A stretch of 64,000 nt of DNA, taken from positions 310,001-374,000 of the forward strand of contig NZ_WPZQ01000004.1 of NCBI RefSeq assembly GCF_013030265.1, read 5' to 3'. Positions 22,733 through 47,505 of this stretch are shown piece by piece. Made by a program: the position numbers and the translations under genes. Numbering within the stretch: the first letter of the stretch is position 1; each line of letters begins with the position of its first letter. Source of the DNA: Ruegeria arenilitoris (GTDB taxonomy: Bacteria; Pseudomonadota; Alphaproteobacteria; Rhodobacterales; Rhodobacteraceae). The notes beneath the pieces were generated by a model that searched no databases, was not told where the DNA came from, and worked only from the letters and a program-made list of their open reading frames with translations.

Positions 22733-22923
22733 TGCCTACAGCGCTATCAGTCTTTCCCGTTCGGGTGCATCCCCTAGTGCATTGATAAATAACAACTTAA
22801 ATCAAGTTCGACATAGTTGAATCAAAAAGTTGAGCGATAACTCCCGATTCGTTTCACTTCGCGTCATGCGACGCTGATCCAGTGTCCAAAAGAAGTTTCA
22901 AGGAAGTCCGGGAGGAAAAACGA

Positions 22924-23925
22924 ATGAAGTTCCTGACAACGGCTGCAACCGCACTTGCGCTGTCTGTAACTGCAACGGCGGGCATGGCGGCCTGTGATGA
23001 CGGTGAGATTGTCGTCAAGTTTGCGCATGTTACCAACACTGACAAACACCCCAAAGGTATCGCTGCTTCGCTGCTGGAACAGCGCGTCAACGATGAGATG
23101 AACGGCGTGATGTGCATGGAGGTCTATCCGAACTCCACACTTTATAACGACGACAAAGTCCTCGAAGCGATGCTGCAGGGCGACGTACAACTGGCGGCGC
23201 CTTCGCTGTCCAAGTTCGAGAAATTCACCAAGCAATTCCGTCTGTTCGATCTGCCCTTCATGTTCAAGAACATCGAAGCTGTTGATGCGTTCCAGGCATC
23301 GGCAGATGGTCAGGCGATGAAAGACAGCATGCAGCGCCGCGGCCTGCAAGGTCTGGCTTTCTGGCACAACGGCATGAAGCAGATGTCGGCCAACAAGCCT
23401 CTGGTTGACCCCTCGGATGCGGATGGCCTGAAATTCCGCGTTCAGTCTTCGGATGTTCTGGTTGCTCAGATGGAAGCCATCGGCGGTAGCCCCCAGAAAA
23501 TGGCGTTCTCGGAAGTTTACGGCGCGCTGCAGCAGGGCGTTGTGGACGGGCAGGAGAACACCTGGTCGAACATCTACGGCAAGAAGTTCTTCGAAGTGCA
23601 GGACGGCATTACGGAAACCAACCACGGCATCATCGATTATCTGGTCGTGACATCTGTGGACTGGCTGGACAGCCTGGATCCAGAAGTGCGTGATCAGTTC
23701 CTGACAATCCTTTCTGAAGTCACGGAACAGCGGAACAAAGAAGCCTTTGCCGTGAACGAAGCCGCCAAGGCATCGATCACCGACACGGGTGCCATCATCC
23801 GCGAGCTGAACCCAGAACAGCGTCAGGCGTGGGTCGATGCGATGAAGCCTGTCTGGGACAAATTTGCCGATGATGTAGGTCAGGACAAGATTGACGCTGC
23901 ACAGGCAATCAACGCCGGGTTCTAA
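22924..23925 (+). CDS. dctP: TRAP transporter C4-dicarboxylate-binding periplasmic protein
   Basis: This 333-residue solute receptor has a Sec signal peptide (MKFLTTAATALALSVTATAGMA, cleaved near residue 22). Family motifs include VKFAHVTNTDKHPKG, LPFMFKN, GLKFRVQSSDV and the region GALQQGVVDGQENTWSNIYGKKF, with the conserved arginine R in KFRVQ that grips the substrate carboxylate. The ATG at 22924 follows GGGAGGAAAA; 14 further codons upstream are open but have no ribosome site. With dctQ and dctM it takes up malate, succinate or fumarate using an ion gradient. Two DctD-like dyads lie upstream. Confidence 0.93.
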   Translation: MKFLTTAATALALSVTATAGMAACDDGEIVVKFAHVTNTDKHPKGIAASLLEQRVNDEMNGVMCMEVYPNSTLYNDDKVLEAMLQGDVQLAAPSLSKFEKFTKQFRLFDLPFMFKNIEAVDAFQASADGQAMKDSMQRRGLQGLAFWHNGMKQMSANKPLVDPSDADGLKFRVQSSDVLVAQMEAIGGSPQKMAFSEVYGALQQGVVDGQENTWSNIYGKKFFEVQDGITETNHGIIDYLVVTSVDWLDSLDPEVRDQFLTILSEVTEQRNKEAFAVNEAAKASITDTGAIIRELNPEQRQAWVDAMKPVWDKFADDVGQDKIDAAQAINAGF

Positions 23926-23980
23926 TCCCGGTTCAAGACCGCGCCGTCCAGGGACTGGGGAGTTGTGGACGCGCAGGTCA

Positions 23981-24002
23981 GGCGGGCCGATACAGGCCCG
24001 CC
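23981..24002 (+). repeat. Intercistronic hairpin between dctP and dctQ
   Basis: GGCGGGCC and GGCCCGCC form an eight-pair GC stem with a six-base loop and no U-tract. It probably protects the dctP message or reduces readthrough, giving more binding protein than permease. Confidence 0.6.
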
Positions 24003-24040
24003 GCATTCCACTCTCATCATAAAAATATGGGGACAATGAG

Positions 24041-24718
24041 ATGTCTGGTGCGAAATCCGGCCCATCGGGGCTGGTCGACCAAATCGAAGAAACCCTGATC
24101 GCGTTGCTACTTGGCCTGATGACGGTCATCACATTTGCCAACGTGATTGCGCGGTTCGTCTTTAATTCCAACATTCTCTGGGCACTGGAACTGACCGTAT
24201 TCACCTTTGGGTGGCTTGTGCTGCTGGGGGCATCCTATGCGGTCAAGAAGCACGCTCATCTGGGTGTGGACGCAATCCTGAACATGCTGGCACCTGCGCC
24301 TCGCCGGATAATGGCGCTGGTGGCGGTTGCATGTTGTTTGGCATTTTCGCTTCTGATGCTCAAAGGAACTTATGACTATTGGGCGGTTTTCGCCGACCTG
24401 CCACCTACATCGGGCAGATGGTTCCCGACAGGGTTCGACACCGGCGCGCGCAGTCAGAGCTTTTATGAAGTCGATGACATTCCGATGATCGCTCCGCTGC
24501 GCTTTCTCGAAGACCTCATCAATTATGGGGAATACTACGAGAAACTGCCCAAAGTGATGCCTTATCTCGTTCTTCCCCTGTCGATGTTGTTGCTGGTCAT
24601 TCGTTTTGCGCAGGTCGCTGTTCAGATCTGGCGCGGAGAAACGGATCGCCTTGTCGCAAGCCATGAAGTTGAAGACGAGATCGAAGAGGTCCGGGCTCAG
24701 CAAGGAGAGCATGACTAA
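24041..24718 (+). CDS. dctQ: TRAP transporter small membrane subunit
   Basis: This 225-residue protein is the four-helix DctQ subunit. The conserved segment FNSNILWALELTVFTFGWLVLLGASYAVKKHAHLGVDAIL is visible. The region from about residue 115 to 170 is a longer loop than in minimal DctQ proteins and is typical of DctPQM systems for dicarboxylates. It joins the large subunit and is needed for transport. The stop overlaps the dctM start (TAATG). Confidence 0.9.
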   Translation: MSGAKSGPSGLVDQIEETLIALLLGLMTVITFANVIARFVFNSNILWALELTVFTFGWLVLLGASYAVKKHAHLGVDAILNMLAPAPRRIMALVAVACCLAFSLLMLKGTYDYWAVFADLPPTSGRWFPTGFDTGARSQSFYEVDDIPMIAPLRFLEDLINYGEYYEKLPKVMPYLVLPLSMLLLVIRFAQVAVQIWRGETDRLVASHEVEDEIEEVRAQQGEHD

Positions 24719-26094
24719 TGGACGTTGTAATTCTATTCTCCATGGTCATCGGCCTGCTGCTGATCGGTGTTCCGATCGCGGTTGCACTGGGTCTCAGCTC
24801 GACCCTGTTTCTGCTGATGTATTCCGACAGTTCACTGGCATCGGTCGCCGGTACTCTGTTTGAGGCGTTTGAGGGACACTTTACGCTGCTGGCTATCCCG
24901 TTCTTCATCCTGGCGTCGTCTTTCATGACGACCGGTGGTGTGGCCCGCAGGATCATCAGGTTCTCGATTGCCTGCGTGGGGCATTTGCCCGGTGGTCTGG
25001 CAATTGCGGGTGTGTTTGCCTGTATGCTGTTTGCTGCACTGTCCGGTTCGTCCCCGGCGACAGTTGTTGCCATCGGATCCATCGTGATCGCCGGGATGCG
25101 GCAGGTAGGTTATTCCAAGGAATTCGCTGCTGGCGTGATCTGTAACGCGGGCACACTCGGGATTCTGATCCCTCCGTCCATTGTGATGGTGGTCTATGCC
25201 GCTGCTGTCGAAGTTTCGGTTGGCCGGATGTTCCTGGCTGGTGTCATCCCGGGATTACTGGCTGGTCTTATGTTGATGGTCACCATCTACGTCATGGCCA
25301 AGGTCAAGGACCTGCCAAAGGGAGATTGGAAGGGCTGGGGTGAGATCTTTGTTTCGGCACGCGAGGCCGGCTGGGGCCTGTTCCTGATCGTGATCATTCT
25401 TGGCGGGATCTATGGGGGTATCTTTACCCCAACTGAGGCTGCTGCTGTTGCAGCGGTGTATGCATTCTTCATCGCAAGCTTCGTCTACAAGGACATGGGG
25501 CCGCTCAGCACAGCAGAAGGGACACAGAACCTTTCGCTGCTGAAGAAACCATATGCGCTGATCACTGCATTCTTCCATCCCGATACCAAACATACGCTGT
25601 TTGAAGCCGGAAAATTGACCGTGACGCTGTTGTTCGTCATCGCCAACGCGCTCATCCTCAAGCACGTTTTGACGGATGAACAGGTGCCGCAACATATCGC
25701 TGAGGCGATGTTGTCTGCAGGGCTTGGGCCGATCACGTTCCTGATTGTGGTCAACGTGATCCTGTTGATCGGTGGTCAGTTTATGGAGCCTTCAGGCCTG
25801 CTGGTCATCGTCGCACCGCTGGTTTTCCCGATCGCAATCGAACTGAATATTGATCCGATCCATCTGGGTATCATTATGGTGGTGAACATGGAGATCGGGA
25901 TGATCACACCTCCGGTTGGATTGAACTTGTTCGTGACCTCGGGCGTTGCCGGGATGCCAATGATGCGCGTCGTCAAGGCCGCGCTGCCCTTCCTGGCTGT
26001 ACTGTTCGTCTTCCTGATCATGGTCACCTACATCCCATGGCTTTCGACATTCTTGCCGAACACGTTCATGGGGCCGGAAATAGTGACAAACTAG
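24718..26094 (+). CDS. dctM: TRAP transporter large membrane subunit
   Basis: This 458-residue permease has about 12 membrane segments. DctM family motifs are visible: FFILASSFMTTGGVARRIIRF, LSGSSPATVVAIGSIVIAGM, GTLGILIPPSIVMVVYA, GIFTPTEAAAVAAVYAF and MEIGMITPPVGLNLFV. It forms the transport channel with DctQ and receives dicarboxylate from DctP. It ends the dctPQM operon, followed by a terminator. Confidence 0.93.
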   Translation: MDVVILFSMVIGLLLIGVPIAVALGLSSTLFLLMYSDSSLASVAGTLFEAFEGHFTLLAIPFFILASSFMTTGGVARRIIRFSIACVGHLPGGLAIAGVFACMLFAALSGSSPATVVAIGSIVIAGMRQVGYSKEFAAGVICNAGTLGILIPPSIVMVVYAAAVEVSVGRMFLAGVIPGLLAGLMLMVTIYVMAKVKDLPKGDWKGWGEIFVSAREAGWGLFLIVIILGGIYGGIFTPTEAAAVAAVYAFFIASFVYKDMGPLSTAEGTQNLSLLKKPYALITAFFHPDTKHTLFEAGKLTVTLLFVIANALILKHVLTDEQVPQHIAEAMLSAGLGPITFLIVVNVILLIGGQFMEPSGLLVIVAPLVFPIAIELNIDPIHLGIIMVVNMEIGMITPPVGLNLFVTSGVAGMPMMRVVKAALPFLAVLFVFLIMVTYIPWLSTFLPNTFMGPEIVTN

Positions 26095-26960: not shown

Positions 26961-27200
26961 GCTCTGAGCCTCTTATGATCTCATTCTTCAAAACGGCCTG
27001 TTTTCCGCGCCTTGCGGGGTTCAGACTCAAACTTTTTGGGTGTCTAACATCAAAATATTGTGTTCGTCCAAGATTGATTGATGACGGCTACTTTGGGGCC
27101 CCAATGTTCCTTGGTATCAGGACGTAATAGTCTCGGGTTTCGCAAAGCTTTGTCGCTTGCTGACCTTGCAATTTCGGTTTCTGTTTATAACTGAAGAGCA

Positions 27201-27244
27201 GAGGACGACCTCCCCATCACGGGATATCATTCGGGACGACCCGA
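27201..27244 (+). promoter_or_regulatory. Guanidine-II (mini-ykkC) riboswitch
   Basis: Two short hairpins share the conserved ACGA loop (family consensus ACGR): GAGG-ACGA-CCTC at 27201-27212 and TCGGG-ACGA-CCCGA at 27231-27244, separated by 18 bases. The second ends eight bases before the GAGG ribosome site of the Gdx gene. This is the defining layout of guanidine-II riboswitches, which bind one guanidinium in each loop and free the ribosome site. A -10-like TATAAC lies at 27186-27191. Confidence 0.9.
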
Positions 27245-27263
27245 GCTGATTTGAGGTCTCTTC

Positions 27264-27575
27264 ATGCCTTGGATTTATCTTCTTTTTGCAGGTCTGCTCG
27301 AAATCGTTTGGGCTGTAGCCATGAAGCAGTCGGCGGGTTTCACACGTTTGTGGCCCACCGCTATCATGGGTGTTTCAATGGTGGGGTCTTTTGGCTTATT
27401 GGCTTTGTCGATGCGCACGCTGCCGCTTGGGACGGCCTATGTGATCTGGACCGGGATCGGCGCGGTTGGTGCATTCCTCGTGGGTGTGATGCTTTTGGGT
27501 GAAGCGTTGACGCCAATGCGCATTTTGGCGGCTGTCTTGATCGTGGTGGGGTTGATCACGATGAAGCTGGCCTGA
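27264..27575 (+). CDS. gdx: Guanidinium exporter of the SMR family (Gdx, formerly SugE)
   Basis: This 103-residue, four-helix small multidrug resistance protein carries the central glutamate E13 (LFAGLLEIVWAVAMK) and the Gdx-subtype signature GTAYVIWTGIGAVGAF. Gdx proteins form antiparallel dimers that exchange guanidinium for protons and detoxify guanidine. The upstream guanidine-II riboswitch confirms the subtype. The ribosome site is GAGG at 27253-27256. A stable hairpin (27588-27621) follows before the next gene, a cytosine-deaminase-like enzyme. Confidence 0.93.
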   Translation: MPWIYLLFAGLLEIVWAVAMKQSAGFTRLWPTAIMGVSMVGSFGLLALSMRTLPLGTAYVIWTGIGAVGAFLVGVMLLGEALTPMRILAAVLIVVGLITMKLA

Positions 27576-27587
27576 TGTCTGATGCAA

Positions 27588-27621
27588 CCTGCCGTTGACC
27601 GCTGAGCGGGTATTCGGCAGG
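27588..27621 (+). repeat. Hairpin after gdx
   Basis: CCTGCCG and CGGCAGG pair over 34 bases with an inner CGC/GCG helix. No U-tract follows, so it may slow but not stop transcription into the deaminase gene. Confidence 0.45.
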
Positions 27622-27653
27622 CTGCACTGAAAGCCATTGGAGCCGTACCACTC

Positions 27654-28100
27654 ATGCTGAACGAAACTGACGCACAAATGCTGCGAATTGCCTATGAAGA
27701 AGCCAAAGCTGGTTTTGACGAAGGTGGTTGCCCGATCGGTTCTGTTCTTGCGCGTGCAGGGCAGGTGGTTGCGCAGGGCCGCAATCAACGTGTGCAGAAG
27801 GGCGATCCTATCGCTCATGGTGAGATGGATGCCCTGCGCAAGGCCGGGCGGCAAAAAAGCTATCGCGACACCGTGCTTTATACTTCGCTGTCACCTTGCA
27901 TGATGTGCGCAGGTACCATCGTTCAGTTTGGTATTCCGCGAGTAGTCATCGGTGACACTGTGAATTTCGGGGGCAATGAAGAGTTTCTGCGTCAGCGCGG
28001 GGTTGAGGTCATCCTGGCGGAAGATCCTGATTGCATTGCCTTGATGCGGCGCTTCATCGACGAGAAGCCCGAGTTATGGGCAGAAGATATAGCTGAATAA
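27654..28100 (+). CDS. Cytosine deaminase-type nucleobase deaminase (yeast Fcy1-like)
   Basis: This 148-residue enzyme is of the zinc-dependent CDA/dCMP/TadA fold: HGEMDAL holds the zinc histidine and proton-shuttle glutamate, and SLSPCMMCAG holds the two zinc cysteines. Several segments recall yeast cytosine deaminase Fcy1 strongly: YEEAKAGFDEGGCPIG, IPRVVIGDTVNFGG and a C-terminal FIDEKPELWAEDIAE. It would convert cytosine to uracil; a TadA role is unlikely because the tRNA-binding pattern is absent. It follows gdx by 78 bases on the same strand and may share the guanidine riboswitch transcript. A related amidine or guanidine-derived substrate is a possibility, inferred only from position. 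Confidence 0.85.
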   Translation: MLNETDAQMLRIAYEEAKAGFDEGGCPIGSVLARAGQVVAQGRNQRVQKGDPIAHGEMDALRKAGRQKSYRDTVLYTSLSPCMMCAGTIVQFGIPRVVIGDTVNFGGNEEFLRQRGVEVILAEDPDCIALMRRFIDEKPELWAEDIAE

Positions 28101-28122: not shown

Positions 28123-28872
28123 TTACGCGCCTTCGAGTGCGCGAATGATGCCCGAGAAATCCTCTGCCTTCAGGCTCGCACCACCAACCAGTGCGCCATC
28201 AACATTTGATACACCAAAGATCTCGGCCGCGTTGGAGGGTTTAACCGAGCCACCGTAGAGAAGCCGGACAGAGCGACCCACGCCCTCACCAAAGCGGCGC
28301 TCCAATCGCGCACGCATGAAGTCGTGAACCTCACCGATTTCTTCCAGCGTAGGAACTTTGCCGGTGCCGATTGCCCAGATCGGCTCGTAAGCCACCACGA
28401 GGTTTTCGCCAGTCGACTGATCCGGAATTGAACCGGACATCTGACCGCCGATAATATCCAGCGTGTTCGCCGCCTCACGTTGCTCAAGGCTTTCCCCAAC
28501 GCAAATAATTGTAGTCAGGCCTGCATCCATTGCCGTGCGTGCTTTGGCCCGAACATCTTCGTTTTGCTCACCGTGATCTTCACGACGTTCAGAGTGACCG
28601 AGAATGACCGAGTTGGCACCTGTATCTTTCAACATTTCAGCACTTAGATCGCCTGTATGCGCACCAGAGGTGGCTGCGTGACAATCCTGTCCGCCGACAG
28701 CGATTCCAGTATGGTGAACCGTTTGAGAGGCCCGGTGCAGCAAAGTGGCCGGAGGGCAGATCAGGATGTCTACGGACGGATCCGGAAATGTATGAGCCAG
28801 TGATTCCAACTCGGCCAGCGCAGGTCCGGTGCCGTTCATCTTCCAGTTGCCTGCCGCCAGTTTGCGCCGCAT
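28123..28872 (-). CDS. tpiA: Triosephosphate isomerase
   Basis: This 249-residue TIM-barrel enzyme interconverts dihydroxyacetone phosphate and glyceraldehyde 3-phosphate. All active-site pieces are present: K11 in AGNWKMNG, the histidine in ILGHSERR, and the glutamate in VAYEPIWAIGTG, followed by the phosphate loop in LLYGGSVKPSNA and GALVGGASL. Length is standard. It is a stand-alone gene, convergent with the deaminase gene. Confidence 0.96.
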   Translation of the reverse strand: MRRKLAAGNWKMNGTGPALAELESLAHTFPDPSVDILICPPATLLHRASQTVHHTGIAVGGQDCHAATSGAHTGDLSAEMLKDTGANSVILGHSERREDHGEQNEDVRAKARTAMDAGLTTIICVGESLEQREAANTLDIIGGQMSGSIPDQSTGENLVVAYEPIWAIGTGKVPTLEEIGEVHDFMRARLERRFGEGVGRSVRLLYGGSVKPSNAAEIFGVSNVDGALVGGASLKAEDFSGIIRALEGA

Positions 28873-45960: not shown

Positions 45961-47505
45961 TTATTGCGGCAAGTGAATGTTGAACTTGCTCCGAAGCTCT
46001 GCATCCAGCAGCGGGTCAAATCGCGCCTGCGACGGCGTCGCAAGGATCTCTTCCTTGCGAGCAATTGCTTTTTCAATAAGATCCGGCTTGCCCAGTTCAG
46101 ACCACTCTTTCGGCGATGTCCGGTCGCCGAGTGTCGGATACACATAATCCACCTGCATACGGCCAAGAGTGGCATCAGTGCCCAGATAATGACCGGGTCC
46201 GCCAAGGCACACTTCGGCGATTTGATCCAGCGCCAGAGTGTCGTCGTTTACTTCGATTCCCCGAACACAACGAAGTGCCTGACCAATCAGATCGTCGCTG
46301 AGAATGAGGCTTTCGAAACAGAATCCCAGCAGGGATGAATGCATACCGGCCGCTTCATAGACCATGTTCAGACCTGACAGACCGGCCATGACGTTCGAAC
46401 ACATCTGTTCCCAGCCAGCCTGCATATCGGGGAGTTTTGCATCGGATGCGCCTGCAGCTGCACCGCCTGGCAGTCCGTAGAACTTATGCATCTGAGCGCA
46501 CCCTGCACTCAAAAGCGCTTGTTCACCGGAACCTACCGACATCGCTCCGGTACGCAAATCCAGACCAAAGGGCCAAGTGCCAAAAATCGCGGGGGCACCG
46601 GGTTTTACGGCATTTACATAAACCAAACCAGCCAGGCATTCCGCGGTTGCCTGAGTGATTGCTCCGGCGATTGTAGACGGCGCGGTTGCACCCGCCATAC
46701 CTGCGGAAAGCAGCAGAACAGGCATACCGGCCTTGATGCATTCCTCCATAACTTCGCAGCTTTCAGTTGCGAATTTCATTGGTGGAACGACAAAGCAGTT
46801 GGAGTTCGACACAAATGGACGTTCGCGCCACTTGTCTTCACCGCCAGCGATCATGTGCAGCATTTCCACCGCCGGAGCGACATAGCTGGGATCGGTGAAC
46901 GATGTACCAATATGTTTGAATGTACCCGAACAGCAAGCATAGATGGTGTTCAGATCCATCTCGCGGTTGTCCAGAATGTCACGGCAAACCATCGGACGCT
47001 GAACGAAATGGATATTGTCCAGACTATCGCAGATACGGGATGCGTCATGCAGGTCCTGAACCGTTGAATCACGGTACTCGCGACCATGCACATCGACCAT
47101 GTGTACTGCAGCGCCGGCGGTTCCATAGTGGACGCGGTTGCCCGAAAGCTCGAGGTCAGTTTTGCCATCACGGCTATAAAGCGTGACCGAACGGTTTGCT
47201 TTGGCCAGCATGTCCTCGACCAATGCGCGCGGGAAGCGGATACGTCCGTCATCCCCGAGAATACAGCCTGCGCCGACCAGATAGTCGATGCCGCTTTGCG
47301 GTGCATCGGCAAGGCCGATCGTCTCAAGTGCTGTCAGGGCGGCGTTGTGTATACGCTCCATATCCTGCTGGCTGAGAGGTTTGTATGTGCCACCTTCCAT
47401 GCCTGGGCGTACAGGGCGCAGGTGGTCGGGCAGGGCGGCGGCACGCGCTGCACGACGGGCAGAGCGTCCGCCGCTACGAGAAGAGCTACGGGATTGATCG
47501 TTCAT
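45961..47505 (-). CDS. MttB family corrinoid methyltransferase, non-pyrrolysine type
   Basis: This 514-residue TIM-barrel protein belongs to the trimethylamine methyltransferase (MttB/COG5598) family. Recognisable segments are GGTYKPLSQQDMERIHNAAL, YGTAGAAVHMVD, MPVLLLSAGMAGATAPSTIAGAITQATAECLAGLVYVN and LGGPGHYLGTDATLGRMQVDYVYP. The frame has no in-frame stop codon, so it uses no pyrrolysine. Such homologues demethylate glycine betaine, proline betaine, carnitine or similar quaternary amines onto a corrinoid protein. No corrinoid protein or tetrahydrofolate methyltransferase gene is adjacent. The N-terminus (RSSSRSGGRSARRAARAA) is arginine- and serine-rich, unusual but often seen in Rhodobacteraceae members. 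Confidence 0.88.
   Translation of the reverse strand: MNDQSRSSSRSGGRSARRAARAAALPDHLRPVRPGMEGGTYKPLSQQDMERIHNAALTALETIGLADAPQSGIDYLVGAGCILGDDGRIRFPRALVEDMLAKANRSVTLYSRDGKTDLELSGNRVHYGTAGAAVHMVDVHGREYRDSTVQDLHDASRICDSLDNIHFVQRPMVCRDILDNREMDLNTIYACCSGTFKHIGTSFTDPSYVAPAVEMLHMIAGGEDKWRERPFVSNSNCFVVPPMKFATESCEVMEECIKAGMPVLLLSAGMAGATAPSTIAGAITQATAECLAGLVYVNAVKPGAPAIFGTWPFGLDLRTGAMSVGSGEQALLSAGCAQMHKFYGLPGGAAAGASDAKLPDMQAGWEQMCSNVMAGLSGLNMVYEAAGMHSSLLGFCFESLILSDDLIGQALRCVRGIEVNDDTLALDQIAEVCLGGPGHYLGTDATLGRMQVDYVYPTLGDRTSPKEWSELGKPDLIEKAIARKEEILATPSQARFDPLLDAELRSKFNIHLPQ

Follow-up and report, generated by a model that had tools for sequence, protein, structure and literature searches.

Guanidine-II (mini-ykkC) riboswitches control gdx/sugE genes, and the class is described as a translational switch in the sections available to us of a 2025 review (PMC12186494). 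The Gdx subtype of SMR proteins carries residues E13, W16, S42 and W62, with W16 separating Gdx from Qac (PMC7695847, from the portion available), and a solved guanidinium exporter of this subtype is Gdx-Clo (6WK5/6WK8). In yeast cytosine deaminase, Fcy1 (1UAQ, 1P6O, 2O3K), the ligand-contact and pocket residues are N51, G63, D155, F114 and W152 (PMC11000218, likewise from the portion available). The locus described here brings a gdx gene and a bacterial relative of Fcy1 together on one strand of a Ruegeria genome. The window, meaning the whole stretch of DNA that was analysed, is 64,000 nucleotides long (C18:310001-374000 of the 4.62 Mb genome), and the features of the locus are as follows.

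22882-26094, + strand: dctP-dctQ-dctM TRAP transporter genes (DctP and DctM by NCBIfam, DctQ by position)
27197-27244, + strand: guanidine-II riboswitch aptamer (RF01068; Rfam match and sequence reading)
27201-27212, + strand: aptamer hairpin 1, GAGG-ACGA-CCTC (sequence reading)
27231-27244, + strand: aptamer hairpin 2, TCGGG-ACGA-CCCGA (sequence reading)
27253-27257, + strand: gdx Shine-Dalgarno GAGGT (predicted to pair with the hairpin 1 3' arm ACCTC, 27208-27212)
27264-27575, + strand: gdx, guanidinium-exporter-type SMR protein, 103 aa (Pfam SMR, similarity to Gdx-Clo, residues)
27595-27623, + strand: promoter-like element TTGACC-N17-CAGGCT, also written TTGAC-N16-GGCAG-NN-T (conservation; putative function)
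27639-27642, + strand: possible deaminase ribosome site GGAG (sequence reading; putative)
27654-28100, + strand: Fcy1-like (yeast cytosine deaminase-like) zinc deaminase, 148 aa (homology and aligned residues)
28123-28872, - strand: convergent tpiA-like neighbour (name from its translation, by eye)

The dctPQM genes and the tpiA-like gene are the usual left and right borders of the locus in the genus. Elsewhere in the window, an Rfam PYLIS_3 match (46350-46448, - strand, 41.4 bits) lies inside a 514-aa ORF (45961-47505, - strand) that is presumed to be MttB-like; read with the standard code, this ORF has no stop inside it, and hence no in-frame TAG.

The initial annotation had read two ACGA-loop hairpins, 18 bases apart and placed before the Gdx ribosome site, as a guanidine-II riboswitch, and this reading is borne out. 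In a whole-library Rfam scan of the 64 kb, RF01068 matches 27197-27244 (+) over its entire model (1-48/48) with 33.6 bits (gathering score 32; E 0.0058), and a scan of the 4.62 Mb genome matches it at this one place only (E 1e-4). The hairpins can also be read directly with their 18-nt linker, and both loops are kept as ACGA in all 14 aligned leaders of the genus, in line with the ACGR loop of RF01068. In minimum-energy folds of the leaders of gdx-deaminase loci in the genus, at least three of the five gdx Shine-Dalgarno bases are paired with the hairpin 1 3' arm in 14 cases out of 14. When both hairpins are forced, the Shine-Dalgarno bases are predicted to be fully free in only one of the 14, so its release in silico is plausible without being cleanly predicted. 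Judging from its sequence, the riboswitch is expected to respond to guanidine: binding of the ligand would raise gdx translation, and without it the hairpin 1 3' arm could pair with the Shine-Dalgarno. Upstream of the riboswitch, at 27140-27196, a CTTG motif is kept in the genus alignment and a TATCT-like block is present in most rows. This is probably the gdx promoter, and in most relatives a terminator-like hairpin precedes it.

The gdx start codon is an ATG at 27264, and the product of 27264-27575 matches Pfam SMR with an E-value of 1e-26. Its best solved relative is Gdx-Clo, at 94.8 bits compared with 52.2 bits for EmrE, and all four subtype residues (E13, W16, S42 and W62) are present. 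The Gdx identity proposed at the outset is thereby confirmed.

The following gene, which begins 78 nt past the gdx stop on the same strand, had been called a Fcy1-type deaminase, again correctly: among solved structures it is closest to yeast cytosine deaminase, matched nearly end to end (E about 3e-42). In the alignment, H55, C82, C85 and E57 of the window protein fall on H62, C91, C94 and E64 of the yeast enzyme, which we take to be its three zinc ligands and its catalytic glutamate. N44, G56, D145, F105 and W142 correspond to yeast N51, G63, D155, F114 and W152, and yeast F153 is replaced by A143. The substrate is thus probably cytosine or a closely similar pyrimidine. An amidine or guanidine substrate had also been suggested, and one could imagine the enzyme acting on a guanidine-derived or amidine compound as a functional partner of Gdx. 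Position is the one point in favour of such a partnership, which is highly improbable given that the pocket is that of a cytosine deaminase, with all of these contact residues, E64 and the zinc ligands kept (F153 being the single exception), and that close orthologues lie in unrelated operons. The closest orthologue outside the genus (G041, 89% identical) belongs to an ABC transporter/CE4 operon, a CE4 gene lies directly upstream in 37 of 80 loci (the best 80 of 501 named close relatives), where it is the commonest context, and another orthologue adjoins CTP synthase; gdx for its part persists without the deaminase. Reading the gene as a pyrimidine deaminase keeps a false hint of guanidine-derivative substrates off the Fcy1-like bacterial deaminases, whose commonest surveyed context is the CE4/ABC transporter operon.

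These other contexts offer observations of their own. The deaminase often follows a gene of the CE4 polysaccharide-deacetylase family (L052, L053, L058, L060, L062 and L063, besides the 37 of 80 in L225-L304), and at L052 a family search finds ABC transporter genes as well as the CE4 gene. The nearest solved relative of the CE4 protein is 3RXZ, and PuuE allantoinase is also related. The combination is likely an uptake-and-hydrolysis operon for a cyclic nitrogen compound. At L056:5100-7222 the CTP synthase gene runs into the start codon of the deaminase, which places the latter directly in a pyrimidine context, and two orthologues among the best 80 of the 501 named close relatives follow an Amidohydro_3 protein. 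Neighbouring genes were called by simply taking the longest ORFs, which gives some of them wrong labels, and only those checked by family search or homology are used here.

The initial annotation had further suggested that the deaminase might belong to a guanidine regulon and had proposed a survey of deaminases next to guanidine riboswitches. Carried out across independent lineages, for the riboswitch or for gdx, this survey returns the association from the window's genus only. Among 394 genomes of the family, RF01068 occurs in 65 and the deaminase in 20, and the two lie side by side in just two, G000 and G043 of the same genus. In the other 392 genomes they co-occur in 3, where 2.9 are expected, and are never adjacent. 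Deaminase loci from other genera of the family, 18 in number and 9-14 kb long, all lack gdx, and so do 48 loci sampled from the deaminase matches of the class and phylum (1.5 kb flanks, shorter at contig ends). The gdx gene lies near the deaminase in nine of the best 80 of 501 named close relatives, all nine from the window's genus. Rfam scans at the gathering cut-off find no guanidine riboswitch at 19 family loci or at 40 of the 48 loci from the class and phylum; weak copies may escape such scans, since the known copy of G043 (30.9 bits, L035) falls below this cut-off. L217-L224 and L225-L304, which lay outside these scans, were searched for gdx and for the DNA element described below. The literature searched yielded no paper joining guanidine, Ruegeria and a riboswitch, and the available part of PMC7266159 does not mention any deaminase.

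Within the genus, gdx and the deaminase occur independently. Across 54 genomes, a deaminase match is found in 18, gdx in 45 (E 1e-20) and RF01068 in 41. Of the 18 genomes with the deaminase, 14 have gdx, as do 31 of the 36 without it (Fisher p 0.46). In those 14, gdx stands directly before the deaminase, which is decayed in one of them (G443, with two in-frame TGA codons); a decayed deaminase lies beside gdx in G428 too. The order with an intact deaminase is thus kept in 13 of 18 deaminase-bearing species, a count that speaks against treating the genes as separate units. G421 and G429 have dctM, the deaminase and tpiA at the same site without gdx, G403 carries its deaminase elsewhere, and in G437 the locus is cut by a contig end. 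A dctM tree of the 54 genomes, which leaves 23 of its 51 inner branches open, places the gdx-less G421 and G429 in one moderately supported group with the gdx-bearing G394, so that it fits gain and loss of gdx alike.

What the gaps between gdx and the deaminase have in common bears on how the deaminase is expressed. The 14 aligned gaps of the genus share little besides TTGAC and GGCAG, set 16 nt apart in 13 of them. Since the 16-nt spacers average 38% identity over the 14 loci, it would take more than recent common descent to account for the element. Written as TTGACN-N17-CAGNNT, it is spaced like a sigma-70-type promoter, and its -10 keeps only A2 and T6 of TATAAT. Among the best 80 of 501 named close relatives it has 18 occurrences, every one of them in the 160 nt upstream of the deaminase, and none elsewhere on either strand, and it precedes deaminases that lack gdx (G421/L245, eight of ten Leisingera loci, and L267); by eye it can be seen in L064 as well. 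L267 (JAHVJD010000002.1) is titled Nocardioides marinus and is probably a misnamed assembly, its contig being as long as that of G238:C2 of the window's family. The element is absent from G430 and from the gdx-less G429 in the gap alignment. We propose, on the strength of this conservation, that it is the deaminase's own promoter. Against this, CAGNNT is far from TATAAT, and a spacing test on other loci found no general enrichment of such -10-like hexamers at promoter spacing, the CAG..T peak at the right spacing stemming mainly from the deaminase loci themselves. An operator is possible instead; in either role, the element goes with the deaminase rather than with gdx. The initial annotation had held that a separate deaminase promoter, together with no response to guanidine, would speak against a guanidine regulon: the conserved promoter-like element is indeed there, and its activity as a promoter is what conservation suggests.

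Two further ideas about the gap were rejected. A genome-wide regulon marked by the element is not seen, the exact pattern occurring once in the genome against twice for the reversed control, with no general NA...T peak. A hairpin, CCTGCCG...CGGCAGG, considered as a terminator or RNA element, pairs in the window (z -1.4) and in three relatives, and the other gaps keep only TTGAC and GGCAG.

No conserved terminator lies between gdx and the deaminase in the genus gap alignment, and none appears in the scan of the window, so that read-through from gdx is possible. Both genes might then share one transcript in Ruegeria, on which guanidine would modestly raise deaminase expression by read-through (polarity relief), besides the gene's own promoter. 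The common strand, the gap of 63-80 nt without a conserved terminator and a gene order shared by 14 genomes of the genus all agree with such a transcript, but the promoter-like element within the gap, the lack of gene co-occurrence beyond the genus, and the 31 of 45 gdx carriers of the genus that have no deaminase match make it unlikely.

We think it probable that the locus is made of two separate units, set side by side between dctPQM and tpiA. The first would be the riboswitch with gdx. The second would be the Fcy1-like deaminase gene, probably of cytosine/pyrimidine type, with a promoter of its own in the gap. Read-through from gdx and such a promoter can coexist, and some read-through may reach the deaminase, though not as a conserved regulatory link. 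Because guanidine-II acts on translation start, a gene 78 nt past the gdx stop would not be switched directly. With a pair limited to one genus, genes that occur independently, and an element that is also found before gdx-less deaminases, there is no support for counting the deaminase in the guanidine regulon. More generally, a gene cannot be added to a regulon simply because it lies next to one under riboswitch control; here the comparison across genomes sets the two units apart and favours a promoter of its own for the second. It is conceivable, with a probability that we put well below that of the shared transcript, that the Ruegeria deaminase was drawn into the guanidine response when gdx was placed or kept in front of it, read-through adding guanidine-dependent expression. 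If so, guanidine stress would be linked to nitrogen salvage through a pyrimidine deaminase.

The riboswitch survey of the family also brought up a stronger and more interesting lead than the gdx-deaminase adjacency. Among its 70 RF01068 copies (riboswitch loci L002-L109), the commonest first gene encodes a PACE protein (PF05232), with 38 cases (e.g. L006:1501-2025, L024 and L093) against 27 for SMR proteins, which divide into 19 Gdx-like and 8 divergent ones. DUF1989 proteins, presumably carboxyguanidine-deiminase-like, follow three copies, and no recognised gene follows the last two. Seen from the other side, 24 of the 58 PF05232-bearing genomes among 248 searched have an RF01068 copy just upstream, as found by reading the coordinates together. 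PF05232 is named for the efflux of chlorhexidine, which is a bisbiguanide. The pairing suggests that guanidinium or guanidinyl compounds are natural PACE substrates. It was not found in the literature searched, and in the available sections of PMC12186494 "Pace" is an author's name.

Compared with known systems, the riboswitch and gdx of the window are a routine example of their kind. As in other guanidine-II (mini-ykkC) systems that control gdx/sugE, two ACGA-loop hairpins scoring above the Rfam gathering cut-off stand directly before an SMR gene, with a Shine-Dalgarno predicted to pair with hairpin 1; nothing notable sets the locus apart, although its bit score is barely above the cut-off. 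The match to Gdx-Clo spans residues 1-101 with the four subtype residues kept, whereas the protein reaches only 110.5 bits on the NCBIfam SugE equivalog NF008512, whose cut-off is 126. Like yeast Fcy1, from which it differs by an alanine in place of the lid phenylalanine, the deaminase combines a whole-length match with the zinc ligands, the catalytic glutamate, the ligand-contact residues and the tryptophan and aspartate of the C-terminal lid, a likeness known from sequence.
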